A DNA stretch of 64,000 bases, taken from Gemmatales bacterium (lineage in GTDB: Bacteria; Planctomycetota; Planctomycetia; Gemmatales; Gemmataceae). The stretch lies in NCBI GenBank assembly GCA_026004675.1, contig BPJP01000005.1, positions 62,001-126,000 on the forward strand, in the 5' to 3' direction. A program made the translations under genes and the position numbers. Shown one piece after another: positions 7,640 through 26,063 of this stretch (position 1 is its first letter; each line of letters begins with the position of its first letter). The notes under the pieces were generated by a model, which made no database searches, was not told the origin of the DNA, and worked only from the letters and a program-made list of their open reading frames with translations.

Positions 7640-7710
7640 GGCCCCTTAGCCAAGTGGTAAGGCAGCGGATTGCAAATCCGCCAGCGCCGGTTCGAATCCG
7701 GCAGGGGCCT
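7640..7710 (+). tRNA. tRNA-Cys (anticodon GCA)
   Basis: Read directly as a cloverleaf. The acceptor stem GGCCCCT pairs with AGGGGCC. The D arm is GCC/GGC around AAGTGGTAA, the anticodon stem GCGGA/TCCGC encloses TTGCAAA (anticodon GCA), and the T arm is GCCGG-TTCGAAT-CCGGC. The discriminator base is T, as usual for tRNA-Cys. No CCA is encoded, and a short T tract (TTTTTC) follows directly. It lies between the RraA-like gene and the convergent CNNM transporter. Confidence 0.97.
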
Positions 7711-9064: not shown

Positions 9065-9451
9065 GCTCCTACATAACGCTGGGTTTACTCCACCATACCA
9101 TACTATCAAGACAACACCAAACAGGCTGCCAGCCGGTCCGTTCGCCAAACACCCCACGAACCGGAGGTTGGCCAGGCATGACGCAGCTGAATCCAGACCG
9201 GGCGTCGTCCTGCTCGTCCATGCTCGTGCACCTTCCCCGCCGAGACCCCACCGGTTTCCGCATCCTGGTTCGCAGGCTGTGCCCGGGAACCAACTGGTTC
9301 GAGGCTCCGCCTCGGATGGTCCGAACGGGATGCGTGGCACGCCCTCACCGATGGCAAGGGTGTGCGAACCTCGGCTGGCTGGGATCGACCACCTTCATCG
9401 AAGTGGTTTGGTGGCTGGCTACGCGACGGCACCTTCGACATACTGCAAGCC
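9065..9451. other. Region without a supported gene between the CNNM transporter and the first RHS fragment
   Basis: Open frames on both strands exist but have no ribosome site, no recognisable motif and unbalanced composition. The bases next to 9065 carry the promoter and leader of the minus-strand CNNM gene. The rest may be decayed RHS or insertion-sequence DNA, but I cannot assign it. Confidence 0.4.
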
Positions 9452-9628
9452 GCCGGCAGCAATCCGTACCTCTTCACCGGCCAACGCTTCGACCCAGAAA
9501 CGGGATTATACTACTACAAGGAGAGATATTATCTTGCAGATGAAGGCCGATTCCTGAGGAAGATACGGCCATGTCTCTTCTCCAAAAAACGGATGTGTTC
9601 CTGGAGAATCGTAGGCGCCGCCCCTTGA
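9452..9628 (+). pseudogene. RHS core C-terminal fragment (fragment 0)
   Basis: An in-frame stretch reading NPYLFTGQRFDPETGLYYYK then ERYYLADEGRFL matches the hyperconserved end of RHS/YD-repeat cores. Nothing upstream (9065-9450) encodes YD repeats and no toxin-like tip follows, because the frame closes within about 25 residues. It is therefore a detached piece of an RHS gene. It is different in sequence from the three later fragments, which share near-identical DNA with each other. It marks the left edge of the RHS island. Confidence 0.75.
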
Positions 9629-9670
9629 CGAAATCAACCCGGCCGCAATAATTCAGGCGATCTGTGATGC

Positions 9671-9710
9671 GCCGGCCCTGGGGTTGATATGGGGCCGGCT
9701 TTATAAAAAT
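9671..9710 (+). terminator. Candidate intrinsic terminator after the RHS fragment
   Basis: GCCGGCCC at 9671-9678 pairs perfectly with GGGCCGGC at 9692-9699 around a 13-base loop and is followed by TTTATAAAAAT. The stem is strong but the T tract is short, so termination efficiency is uncertain. It would separate the RHS fragment from the membrane protein at 9769. Confidence 0.5.
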
Positions 9711-9768
9711 CTCAACTTTTGACATTAACCGGAGCGGTGAAGGAGGTAACCGAGAGAGGAAGTATTCA

Positions 9769-10200
9769 ATGCCAAAATCCCTTTTTCAAACGATATCACT
9801 GATTTCTTGCGGGATCATCAGTGGGACGATCTCTGGCTTCTTGGTCGTTGTATTCGAGTATGTATTAGATCCACTCGGACCGGTGTCACATTACTCATGG
9901 AACTATTCGCTTGGCGGATTGATCTGCGGTTTTCTGGCCGCAGCCGTACATACGGTCGTCAGCTGCTACTGGCCAAGTGTTAGCAATGCGAGAGGCTCGA
10001 CGGTTTTTTGGGCATTGTTCGCAGGAGTTCTGATGTTAGGGCTCAGCTTGCTCGGGTCGGCAAATGGAGACAATCCAATTCGAGTAATCCAATCGACAGG
10101 CATTGCCATAATTGTCGGGGCGGTGTTTGGAGCGATGCTTGGACTCTTGTACTTTTTATCTTGGTATTTATTTAGATCGCATGATAGTCACGAAATGTGA
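9769..10200 (+). CDS. Small four-helix membrane protein of unknown function
   Basis: 143 residues with four clear hydrophobic segments (about residues 8-30, 43-66, 76-96 and 106-132) and short polar loops. It has no recognised domain. GAGGAAG lies six bases before the ATG, so the gene looks intact. It sits between two RHS pieces, and its stop codon directly abuts the first in-frame GTG of the next RHS frame. In RHS polymorphic-toxin loci the position after a tip is where immunity genes lie, and small membrane proteins are frequent there. That role is inference from position only. Confidence 0.6.
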
Positions 10201-12188
10201 AGCGGCGTCGAGGCAATATCATCGTTCATACTTACGACGGCATCAATCGGCAATTGCAGTCGAATACTCTCCTGGCCAACGGGGGCGAAGGCAACAGCCT
10301 CCTCGTCGGCTTCACCCACGACTACGACCGCATGAACAACAAGCTGACCGAAGGCAAACTGCACGACGGCTTGAACAGCGAATTCTACGCCTACGACTCG
10401 GCTTATCGGCTGGTCGGCTTCAACCGCACCGCCGGTGGCCAGAATCCCTTGCACAGCCAGTGGACCCTGGACGGCGTCGGCAACTGGCAGACCGTTGACA
10501 GTGAAACGCGCCAGCATTCCGCCTTCAACGAGTTGACCTCGCGACAAACCCAGAATTTGACGCCGGGCGTCCGCCTTATCGACGGCGTGCTCGTCATCAG
10601 CGGCAGCGACCAGGACGACCGGATCGAGGTCAAAGGCCAGGGGAACAACCTCAAAATCAAAGCCGACTTCTTGCCTGATGACGTGACCCTGCCCGCTGGC
10701 GACGTGACGCAGATCATAGTTGTCGCGGGTGCCGGAGACGACCGGGTGACGATCAAGAATAATGTCACCATCGCTGCCCGTCTCGAAGGCGGCCCCGGAA
10801 ACGACCGGTTGCGCGGCGGCAAGGGGAACGATATCCTGGTCGGCGGCTTGGGCGACGACAACCTGCGCGGCGGTGATGGCGACGATACCCTCATCGGCAA
10901 TGACGGCAACGACCGGCTGCGCGGTGAAAAGGGCAATGACCTATTGATCGGCGGTGATGGCGATGATCGGCTCGAAGGCGGCCAGGGGGATGACATTCTT
11001 TTAGGCGGCCCAGGTAACGACAAGCTCAAAGGCGGGCCGGGCAACGACCAGGAAGACCAGGACGGCGACCAGACGGTTGTGTTGCCCTCGTTGCCGGCGG
11101 TGTCGCTGACTTATGACGACAGCGGCAACCAGACGAGCGACGGCGAGTTTTTGTACGAATGGGATTTCCAGAATCGGCTGAGGCGGGTGCGCAGGACAGC
11201 GGGCGGCGTGCTGATTGCCGAGTACGCTTACGATGCCGCCGGGCGGCGGGTTCGCAAGGAAGCGGCCAACTCCGGCAAACGCGACGGCACCACCGATTTT
11301 TACCTCGACGGCTGGCAGGAAATCGAGGAATATCAACTCAAGGGGCAAAACGAAAAACTCGCCCGCGGATACATCTTTGGCATCGGCATCGACGAACCGC
11401 TGGTGATGTCGGTCAAAGGCGAGAAGCTGTTCTATCATCAAAACACGCTCGGCTCGGTGTTTGCCCTGACGAACGCCGGCGGCGATCTGGTCGAGCTATA
11501 CCAATATGACGCCTACGGCCGGCAGACGGTCTTCGACTCGTTTGGGCAGCCGATCCTTGGCGGCGTGTCGGAGGTGGGCAATCCGTTCCTGTTCGTCGGC
11601 CGCCGCCTGGATGCGGAGACGTTGCTGATCTACAACCGGGCGCGGTATTTGGATGTCGTGCAGGGGCGGTTCTTGGGGAGGGATCCGATCGGTCGCTGCG
11701 TGGGAGTGAACCTTTACGCCTATACTAACGGCAGTCCTACGAATACGCGCGACAGCTTCGGTTTGGCTCCACAGAAAAAGAAAATCGCTGGCAAACTCTC
11801 ATGTACTTGCAGCTTCACCTGTGGCGGACTTAAAGCCACGGGGACAGCGCAAGTTGATCTTGCACTAAACGTAAAGTTGTTTCCATGGCAATTAATCGGT
11901 CTTAGGCTCGTGGGGGAAGCGACTAAGGTCATGGCCGCTGGTAACTTGGCGAATTTGTTTACTATTCGTGCTGGTGAAGCGTGCCGTGGGGCGATTAGCA
12001 ACCTGAATTTTGGCGAATTCTGGGGGTGGTGTAAAGCTGCCGCCAAAGGAAGCGCCAAAGGACAAAAGTTTGAGGGGCTTTCAAAAGACAATCTGACACA
12101 AACATGGAAACTCACTAATACTTTTGATCCGGCTTTCGGCGCTCCACGAAAGGCGACAGGTATATGCACAGCAACTGTCAAGATGTGA
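10197..12188 (+). CDS. RHS protein fragment 1 with ten internal RTX repeats and a Cys-rich C-terminal tip
   Basis: A 663-residue frame without signal peptide or convincing start (first codon GTG at 10197), so the N-terminus of the RHS shell is missing. Order: YD-type repeats (residues 1-130), a short beta segment, then about ten nonapeptides of the type GGxGNDxLx (about 196-285, the calcium-binding beta-roll of RTX proteins). More RHS core follows ([39 protein letters not shown]), then the terminal [21 protein letters not shown] junction. A tip of about 150 residues with six cysteines (C-x-C-x3-C plus three more) comes last and resembles nothing I recognise. RHS cores encapsulate or present variable C-terminal effectors; RTX repeats placed inside the core are unusual. 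Confidence 0.75.
10771..11693. repeat. RHS/RTX repeat unit, copy 1
   Basis: DNA nearly identical to 13252-14112 and, for its last 400 bases, to 17953-18362. Copy 1 has 54 bases more than copy 2 within the RTX part, exactly two 27-bp nonapeptide units (ten against eight). Identity ends at the conserved RHS tip junction, after which the three tips are unrelated. This is the substrate expected for homologous recombination between tip cassettes. Confidence 0.85.
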
Positions 12189-12236
12189 CGCTTGTTCGCG
12201 TCAGCTCCGCACTTTGATAATAAGAACGAGAGGTGG

Positions 12237-13244
12237 ATGATGGCTTTCCAGATGTTTGTTGTGGTCTCCTGTGCGTTATGTGGTGTTGCTGATTGTCAGG
12301 GCGTGACTTTCAGGTCGTACCTTTTGGAAGGGGCAAACGGTGTCTTCGTGCTAAACCTGAAAAAGCTGTTTGCTGATCGAGCCGGGACGAAGCAATTGCA
12401 AAAAACATTTGCCGACTTTGTGCCGTCGCCATTAAGTGCTGCTATCAAACATCGAAGCGAGACATTTGACGTTGTCCGTGATATTGATCGCCTAACAGTT
12501 GTCAAAGCCAATAGTTTGTGTCCTCGTAAAGGTAAATATCATAATAAACCACTTCCGTGTACGTTTTATGCTATAATCGAAGGCGAAATAGATTCGCAAA
12601 AGATCCGCGCGTATCTGGAGTGGCTTTCTCGGAAAGCACCCATCAAGGCAACCAGTCAGCGAGTGAGGTCGATCTCATTGTGGGAGGTTAAAACAGGCGA
12701 CAAGGTCTGCTATGTCGCGGTACCGCAAAGGGGGACGATGATTATCTCGGGTGCGCGACAGCACATCGTCGATACCCTATCAAAGTCTGGGAGTAAAAAA
12801 CCAGGCCACCTCGGTGGCACCATCGCAGAACTCCTCAAAAGGGTCAACTGCCGCGGCGTTGCTGGTTGGGTTGCGAGCAGCGACATGATAATCGGCACTT
12901 TTTACAAGGGGACGCAGAGCATCACGGTCGAGCATATCACATTGGCAGCGAATGGCATCAAGTCGGTCGTGGGATCGGTCACTGGTAGAGACCGCCTAGA
13001 CGTTGAGATGAGCATTGCATGCAAAAATGCACACGTAGCAGAAAAAATAGGTGATGAACTCGTGAGTTTTGCGAAACGAGGAGCAAACGTGTTACGTGAA
13101 CGAGGCAAAGACTTTGAGCCTCTTAGGGAGTCGTTGAAAACCGTTACGGTTACCTCAAAGAACGACGTGGTCCGGCTACAATGGACACTCACGGCAGGCG
13201 CAATCAGCGGGTTACTCAAGACTTTGTACGATGACTCCTTGTAG
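12237..13244 (+). CDS. Secreted protein of unknown function following RHS fragment 1
   Basis: 335 residues. The start at the ATGATG at 12237/12240 follows AGAGGTGG and gives a signal peptide (FQMFVVVSCALCGVADC). The mature part is a mixed alpha/beta protein with no motif I can name. Its last 80 residues (LESLKTVTV-like helix-strand pattern, VRLQWTLTAGAISGLLKTL) resemble the C-termini of large planctomycete secreted proteins of unknown function, such as the one at 38070. It fills the slot directly behind an RHS tip, 48 bp after the stop, and the next RHS fragment resumes immediately after its stop codon. It could be an immunity or cargo partner, but this is not supported by any motif. Confidence 0.65.
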   Translation: MMAFQMFVVVSCALCGVADCQGVTFRSYLLEGANGVFVLNLKKLFADRAGTKQLQKTFADFVPSPLSAAIKHRSETFDVVRDIDRLTVVKANSLCPRKGKYHNKPLPCTFYAIIEGEIDSQKIRAYLEWLSRKAPIKATSQRVRSISLWEVKTGDKVCYVAVPQRGTMIISGARQHIVDTLSKSGSKKPGHLGGTIAELLKRVNCRGVAGWVASSDMIIGTFYKGTQSITVEHITLAANGIKSVVGSVTGRDRLDVEMSIACKNAHVAEKIGDELVSFAKRGANVLRERGKDFEPLRESLKTVTVTSKNDVVRLQWTLTAGAISGLLKTLYDDSL

Positions 13245-14885
13245 CGGCCCTTCGCTGTCCGACTGGAAGGCGGCCCCAATGACGACAACCTGCGCGTCGG
13301 CGCTGGTGACGATACCCTCATCGGCAACGACGGCGACGACCGGCTGGGGGACGACAAGGGCAATGACCTGCTGATTGGCGGTGCTCGCGATGATCGGCTC
13401 GAAGGCGGCCAGGGGGGTGATGTCCTTTTAGGCGGCCCAGGTAACGACAACCTCAAAGGCGGGCCGGGCAACGACCAGGAAGACCAGGACGGCGACCAGA
13501 CGGTTGTGTTGCTGCCGTTGCCAGCGGTGTCGGTGACTTATGACGACAGCGGCAACCAGACCAGCGACGGCGAGTTCCTATATGAATGGGATTTCCAAAA
13601 TCGGCTGCGGCGGGTGCGCCGGACGGCGGGCGGCGTCCTGATTGCCGAGTACGATTACGATGCGGCCGGGCGGCGGGTTCGCAAGGAAGCGGCCAACTCC
13701 GGCAAACTCGACGGCACGACCGATTTTTACCTCGACGGCTGGCAGGAAATCGAGGAATATCAACTCAAGGGGCAAAACGAAAAACTCGCCCGCGGATACA
13801 TCTTTGGCATCGGCATCGACGAGCCGCTGGCGATGTCGGTCAAAGGCGAGAAGCTGTTCTATCATCAAAACACGCTCGGCTCGGTGTTTGCCCTGACGAA
13901 CGCCGGCGGCGATCTGGTCGAGCTATATCAATATGACGCCTACGGCCGGCAGACGGTCTTCGACTCGTTTGGGCAGCCGATCCCCGGCGGCGTGTCGGCG
14001 TTCGGCAATCCGTTTCTGTTTACAGGGCGAAGATTGGATTCGGAGACGTTGCTGATTTACAACCGGGCGCGGTATTTGGATGTCGTGCAGGGGCGGTTTC
14101 TCGCCCGCGATCTTTACACTGATTTCGATTTGTATGCGTATGTGCAGAACAATCCGACGAATTCGACTGATCCGACTGGATTGCAAGCAAAGCGGGCCTT
14201 TGACGAGAAAATACTTAACCTGCCTTTCGATCGCGCAAGGGACGAACTAGGTAAAATTTTAATGAAAAAGCCAATTCCGCACTTGCAACAAGAGGACATT
14301 GCAATTTTGCTTCGATTTAGGATTAAGGAAATAGAACTCAAGAAGCTAGCATCCCCAGGAGTAATAGGGATGGCACTTCTGGCAGGCGTACGTAATCCAC
14401 TCGAGCAGGCGCTAAATCTCCAGCTCGCGAATTTGATCATCGATAACGCCAAATTGCCAGTCGCATACCGTCTACTAACAGCCGCCCTGGTCCAAAGGAA
14501 GGAAGAATTTTCTAAGCTTCCAAACCCGCCGGTCGTGGTTATCGGTAATGTCAATCTTTTCGCGATCCCGGGTAAAATTGCCCAGAATGTTGTTCACAAA
14601 CTCATAAAAGACCTTGGCAGTGAGGATTTCAACGTTCGAGAAAGGGCCACAAAAGAGCTTATGGAGGTGGGTTCCTGGGCACCAGAACTGCTGCGAAAAG
14701 CAACCAAGAGCAACGATGCAGAGGTTTCTAGACGTGCACAACGGATCCTTGGGCAGTTGGCAGAGGACTTCGCCGCCTCCAGCTTTCGCGGGGTTGTCAA
14801 GTTCATTCCAGAAGAAGATCTCAAGAAATTAAGAAGTATAATGCAAGGCGAGATACCATCAGCGCTTCATCCAGCACTCAAATAA
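13245..14885 (+). CDS. RHS protein fragment 2 with eight RTX repeats and a HEAT-like C-terminal tip
   Basis: The frame opens immediately after the TAG that ends the preceding gene and has no start codon of its own near the RTX part, so this is a 5'-truncated RHS piece. It shows about eight RTX nonapeptides (13260-13480), then RHS core almost identical to fragment 1, ending at YVQNNPTNSTDPTGL. The tip of about 230 residues is all-helical. Near its end it contains DLGSEDFNVRERATKELMEV, a HEAT-like repeat typical of planctomycete WD40 proteins, and the same module ends the next gene. Without a start it may be silent until recombined behind an intact RHS N-terminus. Confidence 0.7.
   Translation, partial: RPFAVRLEGGPNDDNLRVGAGDDTLIGNDGDDRLGDDKGNDLLIGGARDDRLEGGQGGDVLLGGPGNDNLKGGPGNDQEDQDGDQTVVLLPLPAVSVTYDDSGNQTSDGEFLYEWDFQNRLRRVRRTAGGVLIAEYDYDAAGRRVRKEAANSGKLDGTTDFYLDGWQEIEEYQLKGQNEKLARGYIFGIGIDEPLAMSVKGEKLFYHQNTLGSVFALTNAGGDLVELYQYDAYGRQTVFDSFGQPIPGGVSAFGNPFLFTGRRLDSETLLIYNRARYLDVVQGRFLARDLYTDFDLYAYVQNNPTNSTDPTGLQAKRAFDEKILNLPFDRARDELGKILMKKPIPHLQQEDIAILLRFRIKEIELKKLASPGVIGMALLAGVRNPLEQALNLQLANLIIDNAKLPVAYRLLTAALVQRKEEFSKLPNPPVVVIGNVNLFAIPGKIAQNVVHKLIKDLGSEDFNVRERATKELMEVGSWAPELLRKATKSNDAEVSRRAQRILGQLAEDFAASSFRGVVKFIPEEDLKKLRSIMQGEIPSALHPALK
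13252..14112. repeat. RHS/RTX repeat unit, copy 2
   Basis: Matches 10771-11693 almost base for base except for a 54-bp shortening in the RTX region and scattered substitutions. It diverges from copy 1 near the end: GGVSAFGNPFLFTG here against [14 protein letters not shown], and LARDLYTD in place of GRDPIG. The left junction is abrupt, within ten bases of the stop codon of the previous gene. Confidence 0.85.
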
Positions 14886-14902
14886 GACCCGAGGTGGGCA
14901 AA

Positions 14903-17393
14903 ATGTGTTTAGTGAGAGATTGCTCGCTAATGAACGGAATGGCGACCATTTTGTTGGTATTCTTGACGCATGCGTCTTTCGCTCAGCCTAAACCAACTAC
15001 TATCGGAACAGAGCGGTTTCGCCATTTTGCGCCTGTCAATGATGTAGCCTTCTCACCGGATGGGACGAAGGTCGCCTCATGCAGTAACGACCGGACTGTT
15101 CGAATATGGAAGACATCGACTGGAGAAGAATTACGGCGGTATGTATTTGACACTTACCCCGAGACCGTGTCATTTTCGCCCGATGGCAAGACACTTGTGG
15201 TCGGTGCTTCACCTGGGATATGGGTATGGAACTGGGAAAACGGCGATCCTCGACTGTATGTAAAGTCAACACCGTTAGAGTTCAGAATCGGCAACAAAGT
15301 CCATCATACTTACTATCGAGTTTTATCGGCCAATCTTCTTAAAGGCGGACGTTTGGCCTGGAGTGACCGAAGTGGCTCGATCGCTGTGCGAGATATGGAT
15401 TCAGGCAAGACTATTTTCTTCAAAAGACATAGATCGCCAATTAGTTTTCTTTTGGGAGAGAATTACTGTGCACCAGTTTTTTCTTTTGACGGCAAGGTTG
15501 TCGCCTGCCATGAATCTGAAGACGTCGTATCAGTTTCGAGTATCGAGAAAAACAAAGTGATATGTCGGATCAAGGTAAAAGCCCTGGCGACAATGGCGTT
15601 TGCTCCGAATAGCAGTTGCCTTGCGTTGGGATGTACTACAGGCTCGGTGGCTATTTGGGATTTGGCCACTGGCAAGCTGTGTCGTCGCCTCGAAACAGGC
15701 ATTCAAGCAGATACTATAGAATTCGCGCCTAACGGTAAGGCAGTCGCTATGGTAACTAAGGGTGGCCTCATTCGCATCGTGGGCTTACCGCAGGGCAACA
15801 AGATACAAGAGATTCAAGGGCCTCTTACCGGCGTGCTTTCTCTGCGTTTTTCTAACGATAGCGTCCTTCTCGCCGCGGGAGGGGAAGTAGAAGCCGTTCG
15901 CATTTGGAACGTTGAAACTGGTGTCGCTCTTGGGCCACAAGGCGTACATTATGCTCGCGTTTCGTCGCTGTGCTTATCGCCTAAAGGACAGATAGCATCT
16001 GTTGGGTATGATGGCCAAGTAGGCGTCTGGAATTCACAGACGGGAAAACGAGTGCATCTTCTCCAAGGTCATAAAGACAGGCTGCTTACGGTGGCCTTTT
16101 CATCAGATGGCAAGCTAATAGCGTCCGGAGGATTCGGAGGGGAGATTCGAGTGTGGAATGCATTCAATGGAACGCTGGCATTCGTGTTAAAAAGTGCCGA
16201 AAAACACATATTGAAGTTAGTGTTTGCCCAAAGTGATAGAGTTTTGGTTTCACTTGGAGGCACCGCAATAGAGGTCTGGGACATTAGCAGTAAAAAAAAG
16301 AAGATCAGTATTGATGTCCGTCACAAAGTGGATGTGATCTGTGCTTCAGGCGGTAGTCGCTTGGTAACGGTCATGCAAGAGAAAGTAGCTATATGGGATT
16401 TGGCTACACACTCGATTGTCAAGTTCATTGATCTTCAAAGCCCGAAAAAGCCAACAATAACAGCTTTGTCGCCCGACGGTAGGATGTTAGCGGTGGCCTC
16501 GAACTGGCGAGTTTCTGATTTTCCGGAAATTGTTGAGCCAGTGCCGTCCGTTACGCTTTATGAAATGTATACCGGAAGGAAAATTCGAACTATGCACTTC
16601 ACGCAACCATTGTTTTTTGGAGCGCGTTCGGTTTTCAAGTTTGATGCGGAAATAAGTTCAATGTGTTTCGTTGGAAACCAGCTGGTGGCATGTGGACTAG
16701 AGAAGGGAAAGATTGTCCTTGGCAAAGTTGTGGACGGACATCTTTTTTGCCAGCTTACAGGAGGCTCTGGGCAGGTCTTGTCCTTAGTTAGTTCCGAAAA
16801 CGGAGGATACCTTGTGTCCGGAAACTCCGATTCGACGATCCGAATGTGGCGATTGAGCGAGAAACGGCCCAAGCTCCAAATAGAATCGCTCACACAAGAA
16901 CGATGTGAATCATTTTGGAAAGACCTGTCATCCCAGGATGCCCGCGCGGCTTATCAAGCGATTTTTTGCATTTGCAAGCGCACCAGATGATGCAGTTAAA
17001 TTCTTGAAAAAGCGGATACATATAGTTCCGCGCGTACCAGAACGGACAATTGAGGCGTATATCGACGACCTGGATAGCGATTTCTTCAATCAGCGCAAAC
17101 TCGCCTTCGAACAATTATGCACGCTTGGTGATCTGGCAGTTCCTGCTTTGAGGCGACGATTGAATGAAAAACCTTCGAATGAACAACGTCGAGCCATCGA
17201 AAGAATACTAACAAGAGTTCGCCAGCGTTCGTATTCGTCCGCGGAGCTCCAGCAGCTTCGTTCTATTCAGATTCTCGAGTATGCATCCACGAACGAAGCT
17301 AAAGAAATTCTAGAATCTATTTCAATGGGCGCGCCAGCTTCTCGGATTACGCAAGAGGCTAAATATGCGATTCTGCGACTACAGAGGAAGTGA
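14903..17393 (+). CDS. Secreted WD40 protein with C-terminal HEAT-like domain, interrupted by a +1 frameshift
   Basis: The ATG at 14903 follows GAGGTGG; a signal peptide (MATILLVFLTHASFAQ) comes next. About fourteen WD40-type blades can be counted (FSPDGTKVASCSNDRTVRIW is the first, SGNSDSTIRMW the last), enough for two seven-bladed propellers. The frame closes at 16990 after FWKDLSSQDARAAYQAIF, but the family's continuation (AFASAPDDAVKFLKKRI, then AYIDDLDSDFFNQRKLAFEQ and LGDLAVPALRRRL) runs on in the +1 frame to 17393. The shift lies in a run of six T at 16962-16967; five T would restore one protein of about 829 residues. WD40-HEAT proteins of this form are common in planctomycetes; the ligand is unknown. 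Confidence 0.8.
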
Positions 17394-17444
17394 TGTCCGC
17401 ACTGAAAACTCAATCCGGTGAACGCTTGCGGGATCGGAACCACA

Positions 17445-17540
17445 CGCCCTTGCTGGGCGGCTCAACATCGCGGCCAACGGGCGAATCGCCGCCCAACGCT
17501 CGATGGCAACGCGACTCGTTGTAATAGGCGAAGTAAACGG
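17445..17540 (-). pseudogene. Remnant of an integrase-type (IS3/IS481-like) transposase C-terminus
   Basis: On the minus strand this reads VYFAYYNESRCHRALGGDSP followed by VGRDVEPP, matching the end of DDE integrase-core transposases (the NxxRxHxxL signature before the terminal P-rich segment). Everything upstream of it has been lost. It is flanked by pieces of the dispersed repeat (17400 and 17733), showing that this interval was built by several insertions. Confidence 0.7.
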
Positions 17541-17732
17541 GAAGGCTTCGGTGATTTGCTGGGCAACCCACTTCCCTACGCCCTCCTCTCTTTTCCCTCC
17601 TCCACCGCTGGCACGCCCGGCAGCGCCGCAATCGCTGCCTCCTGGTCATGCAAGCCGACGTGCGTATAGAGTATCCGTCCTGTTGAGTACACGTGCGCGG
17701 CAGGCCAGTCGGCAGCGAAAAGTCCCTGTCCG

Positions 17733-17815
17733 TACCGAAAACTCAATCCGATGAACAAATGGCCATGAATCGAGCCGGTCGCAGCAGGCCGCCAGAGCGA
17801 TAACGGGAGACGAAA
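17733..17815. repeat. Dispersed repeat, copy A
   Basis: Starts with TGTCCGTACCGAAAACTCAA and ends with GCCGCCAGAGCGATAACGGG. Closely related copies lie at 22484-22567 and 22753-22803, with a fragment at 17396-17424. Length is about 85 bases and identity is high in both halves. It is not a tRNA or a terminator. Its association with RHS debris suggests it belongs to a mobile or recombining unit. Confidence 0.7.
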
Positions 17816-17951
17816 GGGTGTCAAAAACAAAACGAAGCCCGAGAATCGGACGAAAACGCGGGCACGCGCATACCCTGATCGCGGCAATCGATCAAAACGC
17901 CGAAACTACGCCGCTCGCGTATACAGATGATGCAAGCCGCCAGCTTGCGGG

Positions 17952-18935
17952 ATCGGCACGACCGATTTTTACCTCGACGGCTGGCAGGAAATCGAGGAAT
18001 ATCAACTCAAGGGGCAAAACGAAAAACTCGACCGCGGATACATCTTTGGCATCGGCATCGACGAACCGCTGGTGATGTCGGTCAAAGGCGAGAAGCTGTT
18101 TTACCATCAAAACACGCTCGGTTCGGTGTTTGCCCTGACGAACGCCGGCGGCGATCTGGTCGAGCTATATCAATATGACGCCTACGGCCGGCAGACGGTC
18201 TTCGACTCGTTTGGGCAGCCGATCCTCGGCGGCGTGTCGGAAGTGGGCAATCCGTTCCTGTTCGTCGGTCGGCGGCTCGATGCGGAGACATTGCTCATCT
18301 ACAATCGAGCGCGGTATTTGGATGTCGTGCAGGGGAGGTTTGTGGGGAGGGATCCGATTGGCTTTTCCACCGGGGACGGGACTCTTTACGAATATGTGGC
18401 AAACAATTCGGCCAACGTTACCGATCCAACCGGAGAGCAGCAACTCACAAAACAAGATCACGTGCGAATCATTCGACAGATTGACGGAACTATTAAATGG
18501 ATCAGGATCGATAAAGAGATGCGAGCGCAGGAACGACAGCAATATCTAAAGGCTCTTGAGACAGTACGACAATCTTTGGTTGGGACGAAGCCAAATGTTG
18601 TCATCAGGCTAAAGATGGTTTTCGCACCCGCTACGCTTGTTACGCCTACAATTAACAAGACGGTGAAAATCACATTTCCCCAGGTAGGAGGCTTGGCGAA
18701 AAAACGCATGCTTCTTTTCTATGATGGTCGCCAGATTTATGGTGGGAAGGTCCAGAAACAGTATGAATTGACCGTGAGGCGCAACCTCAAACCATTCAAT
18801 CCGAATCAAATACGCGGCAATGCGGCTGATCCGGCGAATCTCGGATACCGCGTAAATGCATGGATTTTTGACGAACGTGGACGTCTTTGGGCCACTTCGT
18901 GGGGATGGATTGCGGTCGTTCCTGGTCAGCGGTGA
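17952..18935 (+). CDS. RHS protein fragment 3 with unrelated C-terminal tip
   Basis: The RHS core begins abruptly at [16 protein letters not shown] with no upstream RTX or YD repeats; the first in-frame ATG is 18072, inside the core. The core ends at GRDPIGFSTGDGTLYEYVAN and NVTDPTG. The tip of about 165 residues starts with a charged helix and then becomes beta-rich (TLVTPTINKTVKITFP, RMLLFYDGRQIYGGKV, GYRVNAWIFDERGRLW), with no recognised motif. Like the other fragments it lacks a signal, a start and most of the shell. Expression as such is doubtful; a role as a donor cassette is inference. Confidence 0.65.
   Translation: MGTTDFYLDGWQEIEEYQLKGQNEKLDRGYIFGIGIDEPLVMSVKGEKLFYHQNTLGSVFALTNAGGDLVELYQYDAYGRQTVFDSFGQPILGGVSEVGNPFLFVGRRLDAETLLIYNRARYLDVVQGRFVGRDPIGFSTGDGTLYEYVANNSANVTDPTGEQQLTKQDHVRIIRQIDGTIKWIRIDKEMRAQERQQYLKALETVRQSLVGTKPNVVIRLKMVFAPATLVTPTINKTVKITFPQVGGLAKKRMLLFYDGRQIYGGKVQKQYELTVRRNLKPFNPNQIRGNAADPANLGYRVNAWIFDERGRLWATSWGWIAVVPGQR
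17953..18362. repeat. RHS repeat unit, copy 3 (5' truncated)
   Basis: Nearly identical to 11290-11693 of copy 1, including the downstream GRDPIG junction, but lacking the RTX segment. It differs from copy 1 by only scattered bases, for example one change giving LDRGYIF in place of LARGYIF. Confidence 0.85.
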
Positions 18936-19121: not shown

Positions 19122-19447
19122 GCGAGAACCAGGAGAATGATACGTATGAACGGTAGCGACAAAATCGAAGCGATGCTCGAGCTAATGTGCTCTGAAGTCG
19201 GCAATGTTATTCTGAATAATCGAGCGGAAGCAGCCAAGTTCGCTCAAAACTTACCCATTCGTCAGCTTTTTGAAGATTTCGGCGACACTGGCACCGGAAT
19301 CGGCTTAATGCTGAACGCCGCTTCGATGTCAGACGTGTTCTTCTTTCTCGTTCACTCTATCCAAGCTGACGGCCAAGTCGACCAAGAAGAGCTTTTTTGT
19401 GCGATGCAATTGGTTTCACAATCGTTATACCGCTACTGCTGGCTTAA

Positions 19448-20923
19448 CAGCCCGTTGTTTTAGTCGGTTTTGTGGTGAAACGGCGGCGAGGCGGCGGGAA
19501 TATCCTTCCTCAATGAACATCGACCCAGCAAGGTCGCGGACGTCTCCAATACATCACTATGGAAAAATAGAACATCATAATGTAAAAATAGAGAAGCCTA
19601 AAAGCATACATAAGGCCCTGTAGGCTCCGCGGCGTGCCCACTCCGAACAACTTCCGCAGGATCAGACTCAGGTTCCGCGCCGCCACCTGGATCAAATATC
19701 GCTTGGTCACCTTCTCCAGTCCGCGTAACCAACATCTACGCGCCCCGCCGGTCTCACACACATGGGCAAAACTTCGTTCCGTCAACTCGCTCCGCAGTCG
19801 TTGCAGCCGTTTGCCCCGCGCGCCACGCACGCGACGACGGTTCCCGTACACCGCCGCCCGATACTCCGGCGGCTTGTCGGTCCAGCGATGACGATGTCTC
19901 CTTTTCGGCTCCGGAATGTACGTCCGCCACTTCATGAACGCGCACATCTCCAGCGTGCTCGCCTTGTGATACCCCTTGTCGGCCACCGCCTCCTCGATCT
20001 CCACCTTCTCGCCAACGTTGATTTGCGCCTGCATCACACTGTCGCACAGCGTCTGCGCGTCACTATGATCGGCCGGCGAGATCGTCGCCGCCAGCACCAG
20101 ATCGCTCTGCATATCGACCACATGCTCGGCCTTGTACGCCAAGCGCGTCGTGCCGTCCTTCATCCGCGCAATCCGGCTATCGGCGTCGGTTTTCGACTCC
20201 CATTCCTCGTTGCTCACCTTCTTGTCCTTGCGGCTTTGGTCGAAGCGACGCAGGTCCTCATCATTGGCTTCTTTGATCCCTTCCGCTTCCGCCAAACGAC
20301 GCAAGTACTCCTTATAGTCTTCCCCCGTCTCCTTGCGGACGATCGACTTCATTGCCGCGTTCGCCTCCAGCATGGTCGAGTCCACAGCCACCGTCTTGCC
20401 GTGGAGAAGCTTCTTGTCGGCGGCCAGACGCAACACAAACGCGAAGACTTGCTCGTGCACCTCCAGCGGCAACCGTTGCTGCGTCCGACTCATCGAAGAA
20501 TGATCCGGCGTCCTCTCTTGCGGACCGTAGCCCAGAAATTCCGCCAGCGATCGGCTATCGCTGCACCGCCAGGCAATGCCACGCTGCGACGACACCCCCT
20601 CGAAATAGCCCACCAGGATCATGCGAAAGTAGACGCCCGGCGGAATCGACGGCCGACCCATCACCGCATGATAGAACGGAGCACACAGCCGTTCGACCCA
20701 GTCATCGAAACCGGCTTCCGCCAGCAACTGGTTCAGTTTTCTGTAAAAGGGGTGACCCGGCGATTTCGGCAAGTCCGTGGTCGCCACCCACATCTCTTGT
20801 TGTTCGCGCTTGCGTTTACCCAGCGCCATTGCGACTCCTGTCGTTCGTCCCTGAAATCAGTGAATAACACCCGCCAATATACCACGCCTGTCAAGCCCCC
20901 GAACCGACTTTTTCAACGGGCTG
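19448..20923 (-). mobile_element. Insertion sequence of 1476 bp with DDE transposase, TTAA target duplication
   Basis: The ends are inverted repeats. The left end begins CAGCCCGTTG then AGTCGGTT after four bases, and the right end read inward begins CAGCCCGTTG then AGTCGGTT after four bases. TTAA flanks both sides (19444-19447 and 20924-20927) as the target duplication. It carries one transposase gene on the minus strand occupying most of the element, so it looks complete. The transposase resembles the IS1182/IS4-like DDE groups; exact family assignment needs a database match. Confidence 0.9.
19510..20829 (-). CDS. DDE transposase, IS1182-like
   Basis: A 439-residue protein. Its N-terminal region (HPFYRKLNQLLAEAGFDDW, then GRPSIPPGVYFRMILVGYFE) is the DUF772-type domain. 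The catalytic core has VAVDSTMLEANAA (first Asp), ADHSDAQTL, the second conserved Asp block in VADKGYHKAST, and late conserved residues in RSFAHVCETGGARRCWLRG. The C-terminus is a hydrophobic tail of about 30 residues. It lies wholly within the inverted repeats. The start ATG at 20829 lies 94 bases inside the right end. The gene has no frameshift, so the element may still be active. Confidence 0.9.
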   Translation of the reverse strand: MALGKRKREQQEMWVATTDLPKSPGHPFYRKLNQLLAEAGFDDWVERLCAPFYHAVMGRPSIPPGVYFRMILVGYFEGVSSQRGIAWRCSDSRSLAEFLGYGPQERTPDHSSMSRTQQRLPLEVHEQVFAFVLRLAADKKLLHGKTVAVDSTMLEANAAMKSIVRKETGEDYKEYLRRLAEAEGIKEANDEDLRRFDQSRKDKKVSNEEWESKTDADSRIARMKDGTTRLAYKAEHVVDMQSDLVLAATISPADHSDAQTLCDSVMQAQINVGEKVEIEEAVADKGYHKASTLEMCAFMKWRTYIPEPKRRHRHRWTDKPPEYRAAVYGNRRRVRGARGKRLQRLRSELTERSFAHVCETGGARRCWLRGLEKVTKRYLIQVAARNLSLILRKLFGVGTPRSLQGLMYAFRLLYFYIMMFYFSIVMYWRRPRPCWVDVH

Positions 20924-22483
20924 TTAAGGGCTATGAACCATTTCGGCATGCCACAGATGCGGATCATTTACTGGAACTGCTCCGCAAGTGGTCAAATGAT
21001 TCATCTTCACTCGGGGGCAATTACGCTAATGGCGAGACCTATTTGCCATTTTGTGGTCTCGTCGTTTTATCGTGTTTCCTATCAAGATCAATTAGTATAT
21101 TTAAAACATATACTAAATGCTGTTTACTGATCGTAAAGATCATTCTCGGAGTAGGCGGCGTCACGACGTCTGAACGTGACTTTTACGACAGCCTGTCTTC
21201 GATGTTTAGACGTTTGGAGGGCCAATTAACTGAACAACTCTCGACTGTGCCCGGGGATGCGTCAGCAATACCAATACAGAATGATGGGCTGAGCGAGACT
21301 GACAATGTTATTGCGCCTGAAGAAGCATTAAAAGACGGGTTGGCTGATTTAGATGCTCTAGTCGGCGTTGAAGGTGTTAAGCAAGAGGTGCGCCGGTTGA
21401 TGAATTTTCTGACCATCCGCCAACAAAGAATTAGGCAAGGGATGGTTGTTCCGAAGCAATCGTTGCATTTTGTTTTCACCGGAAATCCCGGAACCGGTAA
21501 AACAACGGTTGCGCGAATTCTTGCAAAGATCCTGTATGGCTTCCAGATTCTGGAAACCCCTAATTTAGTTGAGGCCGATAGAGTTGCAATGGTCGGCGGG
21601 TACGTTGGACAAACAGCGATCAAAACAGAGGAAGTGATCAACAAGGCGACGAATGGCGTATTGTTTATCGACGAAGCCTATACGCTCGCGAAATCTAACG
21701 ACAACGATTTTGGCCGGGAGGCTATTGATACGTTGCTGAAACGAATGGAGGATCTAAGAGACAAGCTGGTCGTGATCGTAGCGGGGTATCCAAGTGAAAT
21801 GAAACAATTCATTCACTCAAACCCAGGCTTGGAATCACGTTTTTCCAGATATATTAATTTTGATGATTATCATGTTTCTGAACTTTGTCAAATCTTTGAT
21901 CGAATGTGTGCGGCGAATGAATACAGAATGACTCAGGAAGCCCGCGCCAATTTGGCAATCTTGTTCAATCGGGTATTTGTCAATCGAGATCGTAATTTCG
22001 GAAATGCAAGATTCGTAAGAAATGTCTATGAGAAAGTGATAGCAAATCAATCGGACCGTCTTGTTGCGTTGTCGCGTGCTGACATAACCAAAGATTTGCT
22101 TGGGACTATTGAAGCAGAGGACTTGCCATACGATCTAGCAGACGGAATCCATAAGCCTTTCGATGTATCTCAATCGAAGTGGATTGCGCAGTGCCCGAAA
22201 TGCGAGAAAGTTTCACGTGTCCACTTAGCATTAATTGGAAAGGTCGTGAAATGCAAATGCGGTGCTCGATTCCGATGCCCCTGGTGGAACCTTGAAAAGA
22301 CGACGGTGCCGGGCTTAGCGGCGTTTAAGACGTTTGATCGACCATCTGACCTTAGAGGCTTAGAGCTTCCCGCCTTCTGAAATATGGTATCCGTTCCGCC
22401 AAGTGAAGGTGCGGACGGTTGCCTGGGAAAGGGGTGGGTCAATCGCCTTGGCGGCGAGCGACGTTGACCCTTTCCGTTGTCCC

Positions 22484-22567
22484 TACCGAAACTCAATCCG
22501 GTGAACGAATGCCCATGAAGGGGGCCGGTCGCAGCAGGCCGCCAGAGCGATAACGGGAGAGGAAAGG
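22484..22567. repeat. Dispersed repeat, copy B
   Basis: Full-length copy of the element at 17733-17815, reading TGTCCCTACCGAAACTCAAT at its start (one A fewer in the A run) and GCCGCCAGAGCGATAACGGG at its end. It is immediately downstream of the TerB-AAA+ gene. Confidence 0.7.
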
Positions 22568-22687
22568 CTTCGCCCGTGAATTAGCCGAAAGCGAACCTAC
22601 AGCTCTTTGACAACTCGCAAAGCACATCCAAAGGACCCAGACGCGGATGGCGTATAGGACGGCCTGCCCGCGTTGATGGTTCCCTCT

Positions 22688-22750
22688 GGCCGATATCGCT
22701 TCACCGGCCGTGAATTCGAATCCATCACCGGTTTCCAATACCACCGCGCC
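22688..22750 (+). pseudogene. RHS core C-terminal remnant
   Basis: Reads GRYRFTGREFESITGFQYHR, the FTGREFD-x-ETGLYYYRAR motif of RHS cores in degraded form. It runs directly into the dispersed repeat at 22753. No YD repeats or tip remain. It marks the right edge of the RHS island, matching the fragment at 9452 on the left. Confidence 0.7.
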
Positions 22751-22752
22751 CT

Positions 22753-22803
22753 GTCCGTACCGAAAACTCAATCCAGTGAACGAATGCCCATGAAGGGGGC
22801 CGG
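22753..22803. repeat. Dispersed repeat, copy C (5' half)
   Basis: Shares TGTCCGTACCGAAAACTCAA and GAACGAATGCCCATGAAGGG with copy B, then diverges where copies A and B continue into the CGCAGCAGGCCGCC half. It is joined to RHS core DNA on its left. Confidence 0.65.
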
Positions 22804-22961
22804 TGCCGAACGTAATCAGCCGCATGCCCATGCAAAGCCGTGGGCATGGCACACATGCTATCGGTCATTTTCCAACGGCCTTGTAGGAATACAATGTTAG
22901 GTCGTCAATATCGTCATTGGTTGTTCGATTTCTTCAAAGCAGAGGTTGCGGCTGGAAGCGG

Positions 22962-24539: not shown

Positions 24540-24562
24540 GGTCGTAACAATTTGGTGACCGT

Positions 24563-24670
24563 CTTATCCAGAGTGGCTGAGGGAAGGGCCCGATGAAGCC
24601 ACAGCAACCGATTCGCCTTCCTCGGCGGATGCAGGTGCTAACTCCCACCCGGTAAGCCGGGAGAGATAAG
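24563..24670 (+). promoter_or_regulatory. SAM-I (S-box) riboswitch
   Basis: All conserved S-box blocks are present in order. P1 is CTTATC (24563) pairing with GATAAG (24665-24670). GAGTGGCTGAGGGA is followed by GGCCCGATGAAGCC with the pseudoknot and kink-turn segments, then CAGCAACC, GGTGCTAACTCC and GGAGAGATAAG. SAM-I elements bind S-adenosylmethionine and normally switch off methionine or cysteine synthesis and transport genes when SAM is plentiful. Here the element leads into the threonine-synthase-like gene 143 bases downstream. I did not find an unambiguous terminator or anti-terminator in the linker, so control could be translational. Confidence 0.95.
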
Positions 24671-24812
24671 ATTGGGTGTCTCGCACGCCTCTTCTTCTCC
24701 GAATCTGGACGATCATCACCAAACGAATGTGATTTGGCCCCGGCAGGAGCCAGCATCCGGGCGGATGAATCGTGCCCCTGCTACCATCAACAGTTACGAC
24801 GAGAGAGACGTG

Positions 24813-26063
24813 ATGAGTGGTTTCGTTCGCGGATTGAAGTGCCGACTTTGCGGCACGACGTACGGCAAAGAGCCGTTGAATTTCTGCACAGAGGATTTTG
24901 GCCCGCTCGAAGTCGACTATGACTACGATGCCATCCGCCAAAACGTCAGCCGAGATTTGCTCGAACGCCGCCCGGATACCATGTGGCGTTTTCGCGAGTT
25001 TTTGCCGATCGACGGCGAACCTGCCGTGGGCGCACAGGTGGGCGGCACCCCTTTGATCAAAGCAGACCGTCTGGCGGAGGCTCTCGGCGTAGACAAGCTG
25101 TGGATCAAGAACGACGCCGTCAATTTCCCCACCTTGTCTTTCAAAGATCGCGTCGTTTCCGTCGCGCTGAGCAAGGCCAAGGAGTTCGGATTTGAAACGG
25201 TCGGTTGTGCTTCAACGGGGAACCTGGCCAACAGCGTGGCTGCGAATAGTGCTGCCGCCGGACTGACCAGCTATATCTTCATTCCCGCCGACCTGGAAGC
25301 CACGAAGATTCTCGGCACGAGCATCTACGGTGCGAAAGTGATCGGCGTGCGTGGCACTTACGACGAGGTCAATCGACTGTGTACGCAGGTTGCGTTCAAA
25401 TACAACTGGGGGTTCGTCAACATCAACCTGAGGCCGTTCTATGCCGAAGGCTCCAAGTCGGTCGGTTTCGAAATCGCCCAGCAACTCGGCTGGCGCGTGC
25501 CGCAGCACATCGTCGTGCCGATGGCGGGCGGCAGCCTGATCGGCAAAATCCCCAAAGCCTTCGATGAGCTTGCCAGGGTCGGCTTGATCGACGATGCCAC
25601 TTGCAAGGTTTACGGTGCGCAACCGGCGGGGTGCAGTCCCATCAGCACGGCAGTCAAAAACGGCTGGGACAGTCACAGACCGGTGCGCAAGCCGAATACC
25701 ATCGCCAAATCGCTGGCTATCGGCGATCCGGCCGACGGTTACTTCGCGATCAAACTGATTCGCGAATCTGGCGGGTGGGCGGAAGACGTTACCGACGACG
25801 AAATCGCCGACGCCATGGTCTTGTTGGGTCGAACGGAAGGCATCTTCGCAGAAACCGCCGGCGGCGTCACCGTTGCCGTCGCCCGCAAGCTGATCGAGCA
25901 GGGACGGATTCCCCGGAACGAAGAGATCGTTCTGTGCATCACGGGTAACGGCTTGAAAACCCAGGATGCGGTCGTCGATCGTCTCGAAGCGCCAACGATC
26001 ATTCGACCGTCGTTGGAAGAGTTTTCGCCCCTTGTTGCGGAAACGCCAGCAGCGGTTGTTTGA
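24813..26063 (+). CDS. Threonine synthase-like PLP enzyme under SAM riboswitch control
   Basis: The ATG at 24813 follows GAGAGACGTG; the frame upstream to 24672 overlaps the end of the riboswitch linker. The 416-residue protein has an N-terminal cysteine motif (LKCRLCGTTYGKEPLNFC), then a fold-type II PLP domain with FPTLSFKDR (the PLP Lys) and CASTGNLANSVAANSAAAGL (phosphate-binding loop). PMAGGSLIGKI and AETAGGVTVAVARKL follow. The closest known family is threonine synthase, which acts on O-phosphohomoserine. The SAM riboswitch and the downstream CysO-like carrier and E1 enzyme suggest instead, or in addition, a sulfur-transfer reaction (homocysteine or cysteine synthesis). The family label is secure, the reaction is not. 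Confidence 0.85.
   Translation: MSGFVRGLKCRLCGTTYGKEPLNFCTEDFGPLEVDYDYDAIRQNVSRDLLERRPDTMWRFREFLPIDGEPAVGAQVGGTPLIKADRLAEALGVDKLWIKNDAVNFPTLSFKDRVVSVALSKAKEFGFETVGCASTGNLANSVAANSAAAGLTSYIFIPADLEATKILGTSIYGAKVIGVRGTYDEVNRLCTQVAFKYNWGFVNINLRPFYAEGSKSVGFEIAQQLGWRVPQHIVVPMAGGSLIGKIPKAFDELARVGLIDDATCKVYGAQPAGCSPISTAVKNGWDSHRPVRKPNTIAKSLAIGDPADGYFAIKLIRESGGWAEDVTDDEIADAMVLLGRTEGIFAETAGGVTVAVARKLIEQGRIPRNEEIVLCITGNGLKTQDAVVDRLEAPTIIRPSLEEFSPLVAETPAAVV

Follow-up and report, generated by a model that had tools for sequence, protein, structure and literature searches.

The four RHS pieces that lie in series on the plus strand of the window (P1, P2, P3 and P4) appear to form an orphan Rhs tip array, that is, a set of stored cassettes for the C-terminus of an Rhs polymorphic toxin; each has a downstream partner gene that probably encodes immunity and none has a normal start. 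We put the probability of this reading at about 0.68. It is based on the shared cores, the unrelated tips, the gene behind each tip, the lack of a credible start and the disruption by IS elements, together with the divergence of the cores under protein-level constraint and the toxin and immunity domains held by sister arrays in the same genome. An earlier sequence-only reading had compared the layout with orphan-tip arrays while holding an antigenic or adhesin-switching role equally possible, and the layout, the genome context and the relatives all support an orphan-tip array. The window is the whole 64,000-base stretch that was analysed, bases 62001-126000 of contig C5 of a genome (G000) of 6.03 Mb in 37 contigs with 91% completeness.

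The NCBIfam model Rhs_assc_core, with a cut-off of 32.5 bits, matches P1, P2, P3 and P4 with 37.8, 58.6, 58.2 and 59.0 bits respectively, bearing out the description of four RHS pieces in a row. The pieces and their common core are:

9426..9558, plus strand: P1, a truncated RHS junction fragment that has lost its tip; 90.2% identical to G000:C6:103646-103778
10188-12188 from stop to stop (feature from 10197), plus strand: P2, the end of an RHS shell with an RTX block, the junction and tip T1 (RHS_repeat, RTX repeats, Rhs_assc_core)
10854..11692 (P2 copy), plus strand: the core common to P2, P3 and P4, from DNA comparison
13245..14885, plus strand: P3, an RTX-RHS core followed by tip T2 (the core, 13281-14098, has 93% identity to P2)
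17931..18935, plus strand: P4, a short RHS core and the beta-rich tip T3 (T3 at 18435-18935; 17954-18358 95% identical to P2)

At the DNA level the P2 core (10854-11671) is 92.7% identical to that of P3 (13281-14098), and its part from 11285 to 11689 is 95.3% identical to the P4 core (17954-18358). When the copies are compared base by base, the identity has gone down to chance level no more than about 30 bp from the codons that encode VVQGRF(L/V)(G/A)RD, and the tips behind the shared core are mutually unrelated, just as had been claimed from the sequence. The tip side of this break carries a second, DPxG-like motif. In motifs of the DPxG type, two aspartates some 20-24 residues apart have been linked to Rhs autocleavage; both junction-proximal aspartates are retained in P2, P3 and P4, with the full DPxG pair in P4 only.

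One gene is found behind each piece, with gaps of 140 bp (P1, where the tip is lost), 3, 8 and 201 bp. The normal start and the N-terminal delivery part are absent, and the first possible starts of the fragments are GTG codons. P2 aligns to residues 2168-2267 and 2272-2511 of a 2790-aa RHS protein from a relative (G018) and thus starts deep inside the shell, in the same part that is matched by solved Rhs cores. P3 and P4 are shorter still, so the pieces do lack a proper start, as had been noted. Within the P2 unit lie:

10836..11084, plus strand: a block of calcium-binding RTX repeats within the RHS shell (PF00353, 2.9e-27)
11763..12188, plus strand: tip T1, about 141 aa and Cys-rich
12192..13244, plus strand: the partner of P2, a 350-aa protein with an N-terminal hydrophobic (signal-like) stretch, starting 3 bp past the P2 stop

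The RTX block is missing at the same place in the G018 protein, where residue 2267 joins 2272 directly, and a search of the P2 protein against the genome_contigs collection gave no relatives. T1 and T3 were searched singly, a concatenated tip search having been dominated by the HEAT-like stretch of T2, and neither showed a relative in 398 genomes of the class. An AlphaFold model of T1 from the single sequence was uninformative (pLDDT 59), with no Foldseek match at E ≤ 0.001, and from that of T3 (single sequence, pLDDT 50) no inference was drawn. The secreted-type partner of P2 belongs to a broad, divergent planctomycete family, with distant relatives at 20-26% identity in other planctomycetes.

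The P3 unit consists, beyond its core, of:

14181..14885, plus strand: tip T2, with one HEAT-like stretch (PF13646, 0.0024, below its cut-off)
14894..17393, plus strand: the partner of P3, a WD40-HEAT gene (PF00400, 3.6e-42; homology of the HEAT part)

Within T2, relatives (in 298 genomes) are confined to the HEAT-like stretch. The earlier statement that one gene follows each piece holds, with the correction that the WD40-HEAT gene is split by a frame change into ORFs 14894-16990 and 16905-17393. WD40 genes are found directly behind RHS tips in three genera, making up 4/84 adjacent genes against 5/509 others (p = 0.027), an enrichment that is suggestive only since the window's own case is counted in it. 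A profile search for a link between HEAT-like tips and WD40 partners matched only T2 itself and one weak tip. Two WD40-like genes are also located near an array on contig C3 (L023:3921-4904 and L023:13427-14614, G000:C3), not directly behind an RHS tip.

The array had been taken to end at 18935. The island in fact runs on to about 22.8 kb, with a fourth partner gene and a dead RHS junction remnant near 22633-22749:

19137..19463, plus strand: the N-terminal piece of a TerB-AAA ATPase gene in the partner position of P4 (matches residues 14-119 of a 606-aa relative)
19444..20929, minus strand: an IS1182-family element interrupting the TerB-AAA gene (C2 and C13 carry 100% identical copies)
21160..22380, plus strand: the C-terminal (AAA) piece of the TerB-AAA gene (PF00004, 6.8e-19)
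22478..22804, plus strand: the scar that closes the island on the right, made up of repeat R, a header, the dead RHS junction and a partial R (sequence comparison)

As the AAA piece is 59% identical to residues 197-600 of the 606-aa relative, which comes from another family, this gene would fit a housekeeping role equally well. Further to the right a SAM riboswitch (RF00162, 85.6 bits) is seen at 24561-24672 of the window, directly 5' of the ORF 24672-26063, and a tRNA-Cys is positioned at 7640-7710, about 1.7 kb to the left of the island.

At the left end P1 is followed by:

9557..9680, minus strand: a 124-bp ISAs1-like end (99% identical to G000:C13:104925-105048)
9769..10200, plus strand: a protein of 143 aa in which four segments are hydrophobic (hydropathy peaks at 11-29, 48-66, 78-96 and 104-122)

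The core of P1 is of the type found on C6 and not that of P2-P4. The ISAs1-like end, which is also 94-95% identical to copies on C2, C3 and C6 that adjoin transposase genes, abuts P1 exactly where the RHS homology stops, and it is because P1 runs into it at 9557 that the tip has been lost. The 143-aa protein has no Pfam or NCBIfam match and no relative among 398 genomes with three candidates scored per genome; its gene is possibly an immunity gene left over from the lost P1 tip.

What the other arrays of the genome hold points to polymorphic toxins. Rhs_assc_core has 20 matches at six places (four on C5, seven on C13, four and three at two places on C3, and one each on C6 and C2), and most of the other junctions belong to tip cassettes with 9-45 residues ahead of the junction. 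One tip is Doc-like (TIGR01550, 4.7e-9, with 36.4 bits just under the cut-off of 38.65), and another is an LHH nuclease (2.5e-9), behind which lies a gene that matches SUKH weakly (0.0047). On C13 an ankyrin-SuFu gene (6.1e-33) is placed just ahead of the first unit. Over its final 129 aa, one of the C13 tips has 63% identity to the end of an RHS tip from a different genus (G027), where the linker is not the same, and the genes that follow the two tips are 48% identical, suggesting that tip domain and downstream gene move as a pair. The polymorphic-toxin reading is thus well supported for the genome as a whole, because these other arrays carry recognisable toxin and immunity domains; for the tips of the array studied here we infer it, and an immunity role for the partner genes would follow from their position alone.

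Among the relatives the expected arrangement is seen. RHS junctions are present in 52/76 genomes of the family, many of them in ORFs of >2000 aa, and relatives have RHS genes of 2,400-2,800 aa. In one (G007) four ORFs of 1006, 488, 825 and 371 aa, separated by small genes, come after an RHS gene of 2406 aa, and in another (G058) a SUKH gene (5.7e-16) lies within an RHS array. The window holds no complete RHS shell, as had been stated, and six-frame searches of the assembly, which is 91% complete, found no full-length RHS gene either; searches with TIGR01643 and PF25023 for a full shell returned just a run at a contig end and the P2 and P3 pieces. That run of YD repeats (G000:C26:11363-11602, L053) is open to the end of its contig and is the sole candidate for the missing shell. 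The sequence-only reading had named the absence of a full-length gene with this core as evidence against an array. Such a gene is indeed absent from the assembly, but this is not decisive because of the incomplete assembly and the one RHS repeat run cut at a contig end.

The units share a border sequence. Repeat R is 91 bp long with 34 copies in the genome; its 5' edge (TGTCC...) is sharp and preceded by unrelated DNA, and most copies either begin no more than 64 bp from a gene's stop or have a gene running into them. Across the genome nearly all units have it at their 3' border, the P2 unit being without it. In most cases in the C13, C3 and C2 arrays, a header, 0-2 copies of a 48-bp unit and then the junction come after R; a few units instead have R joined straight to the mid-part of a tip linker. 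Comparison between or within arrays shows 94-97% identity for blocks of 1.1-1.9 kb whose start is at R or close to it, and the whole LHH unit is duplicated between C13 and C3 (94%). In the window the copies of R ahead of the right-end scar are:

17394..17424, plus strand: the first 31 bp of R, starting 0 bp past the WD40-HEAT stop
17727..17817, plus strand: a complete copy upstream of P4, 93% to the consensus

With the further copy at 22478, 97 bp past the AAA gene, these give the P3 and P4 units borders like those in the other arrays. The Rhs tip-partner units may form a dispersing cassette family with R and header as its border, in which whole units move among at least eight loci and the partners include new immunity classes (secreted WD40-HEAT, TerB-AAA), though we regard so broad a reading as doubtful. 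An integron-cassette (attC) reading of R was rejected, with fold z-scores of +1.0 and +0.5 that are no better than those of shuffles and no attC core site seen in R by eye. The header pattern had 0 matches in a collection of 84,980 species genomes from which the window's own genome is possibly left out. The conserved header, for example at G000:C13:96068, contains CAGCTCTTTGACAA, which we take to resemble boxA of rRNA leaders. A lone R-like copy is found at G000:C1:144483-144568 (L187) without header or RHS remains, and a minus-strand ORF at 17410-17649, between the partial and the full R, resembles, as judged by eye, the C-terminus of a DDE transposase.

Several findings count against an orphan array, namely the missing full RHS gene, the broken WD40-HEAT and TerB-AAA genes, and the size and origin of the partner genes, which are large, derive from broad planctomycete families and are unlike most immunity proteins. 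Also counted against it is that T1, T2 and T3 match no toxin family, in agreement with what had been noted from the sequence. This last point would suit antigenic or adhesin switching, in which the array keeps alternative tips, for binding or adhesion, of a large YD-repeat protein on the cell surface, with ordinary secreted or regulatory proteins encoded behind them. The HEAT-like stretch in T2 is of a protein-interaction type, the broad families of the partners would fit, and RTX repeats are typical of secreted surface proteins. We nevertheless consider such switching unlikely, since other arrays of the genome hold toxin and immunity domains and a same-strand gene lies 3-201 bp behind every tip here, as in toxin-immunity units.

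The cores of P2, P3 and P4 differ from one another with a dS of 0.15-0.25 and a dN/dS of 0.03-0.20, with 17 synonymous and two non-synonymous changes between P2 and P4. This bias suggests that the divergence would mostly have arisen in translated genes, or that the cores were converted from translated genes; present translation of the orphan copies is not implied. It also bears on whether the island is a decaying relic, in which duplicated ends of a lost RHS gene have been broken by IS elements and have no current function. The IS remnant at 9557-9680, the IS1182 element, the split WD40-HEAT gene, the tipless P1 and the dead junction are all in keeping with decay, but the mainly synonymous divergence and the tips T1, T2 and T3, which are still open, make a relic improbable, although they count against it only in part, since the synonymous bias could predate silent storage. 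Although repeated cores are a known assembly hazard and the genome is in 37 contigs, duplication of a single core by the assembler, the objection raised in the earlier note, is highly improbable, since the copies are 5-7% different in a mostly synonymous, selection-like pattern, have unique flanks and all lie inside one contig.

If the island is an orphan tip array, a full-length Rhs gene would exist or have existed, a candidate piece of which runs off contig C26. Homologous recombination in the core would transfer a tip together with its partner onto the full-length gene, and R, which borders units on their 3' side in the other arrays as well as P3 and P4, would supply further homology for exchange between loci. 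The stored partner genes may be expressed for protection, and T1, T2 and T3 would be toxic. One planctomycete genome shows a large stock of spare Rhs tips, with its layout, its copying between loci and its loss to IS elements, and yields a defined border of 91 bp and specific pairs of tip and partner. Should the partner genes protect, candidate immunity types such as WD40 proteins would be gained.

The Maf toxin islands of Neisseria keep silent toxin cassettes beside a secreted scaffold gene; the storage is alike, but the scaffold is unrelated. Closer are the orphan cdiA-CT/cdiI and rhs-CT/rhsI modules described by Poole et al, 2011 (PMC3150448), which share with this array a varying core length, unrelated tips without a translation start, a gene behind each tip and IS disruptions, and for which exchange at a conserved motif is reported there. 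Unlike those modules, the array has no full-length gene alongside it or in the assembly, its tips are unclassified, its partner genes are large, its core contains an RTX block and its units are bordered by the 91-bp repeat. The sequence-only reading knew of no description in planctomycetes, which has to be corrected: polymorphic toxins with immunity genes were reported there by Zhang et al, 2012 (PMC3482391), and RHS junctions are widespread in the family. That paper lists LHH toxins and SuFu, SUKH, ankyrin and HEAT immunity proteins, and its systems resemble the array in the Rhs scaffold, the C-terminal cassettes and the adjacent immunity candidates; the term WD40 is absent from the part of its text that was compared. 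The array works like the orphan Rhs arrays of Poole et al, 2011 and by most testable features belongs with them, though its membership is incomplete. Both orphan arrays and planctomycete polymorphic toxins were already known, and what is new relative to the literature compared is the unit border R, the RTX insertion in the core and the large partner types (secreted, WD40-HEAT and TerB-AAA).
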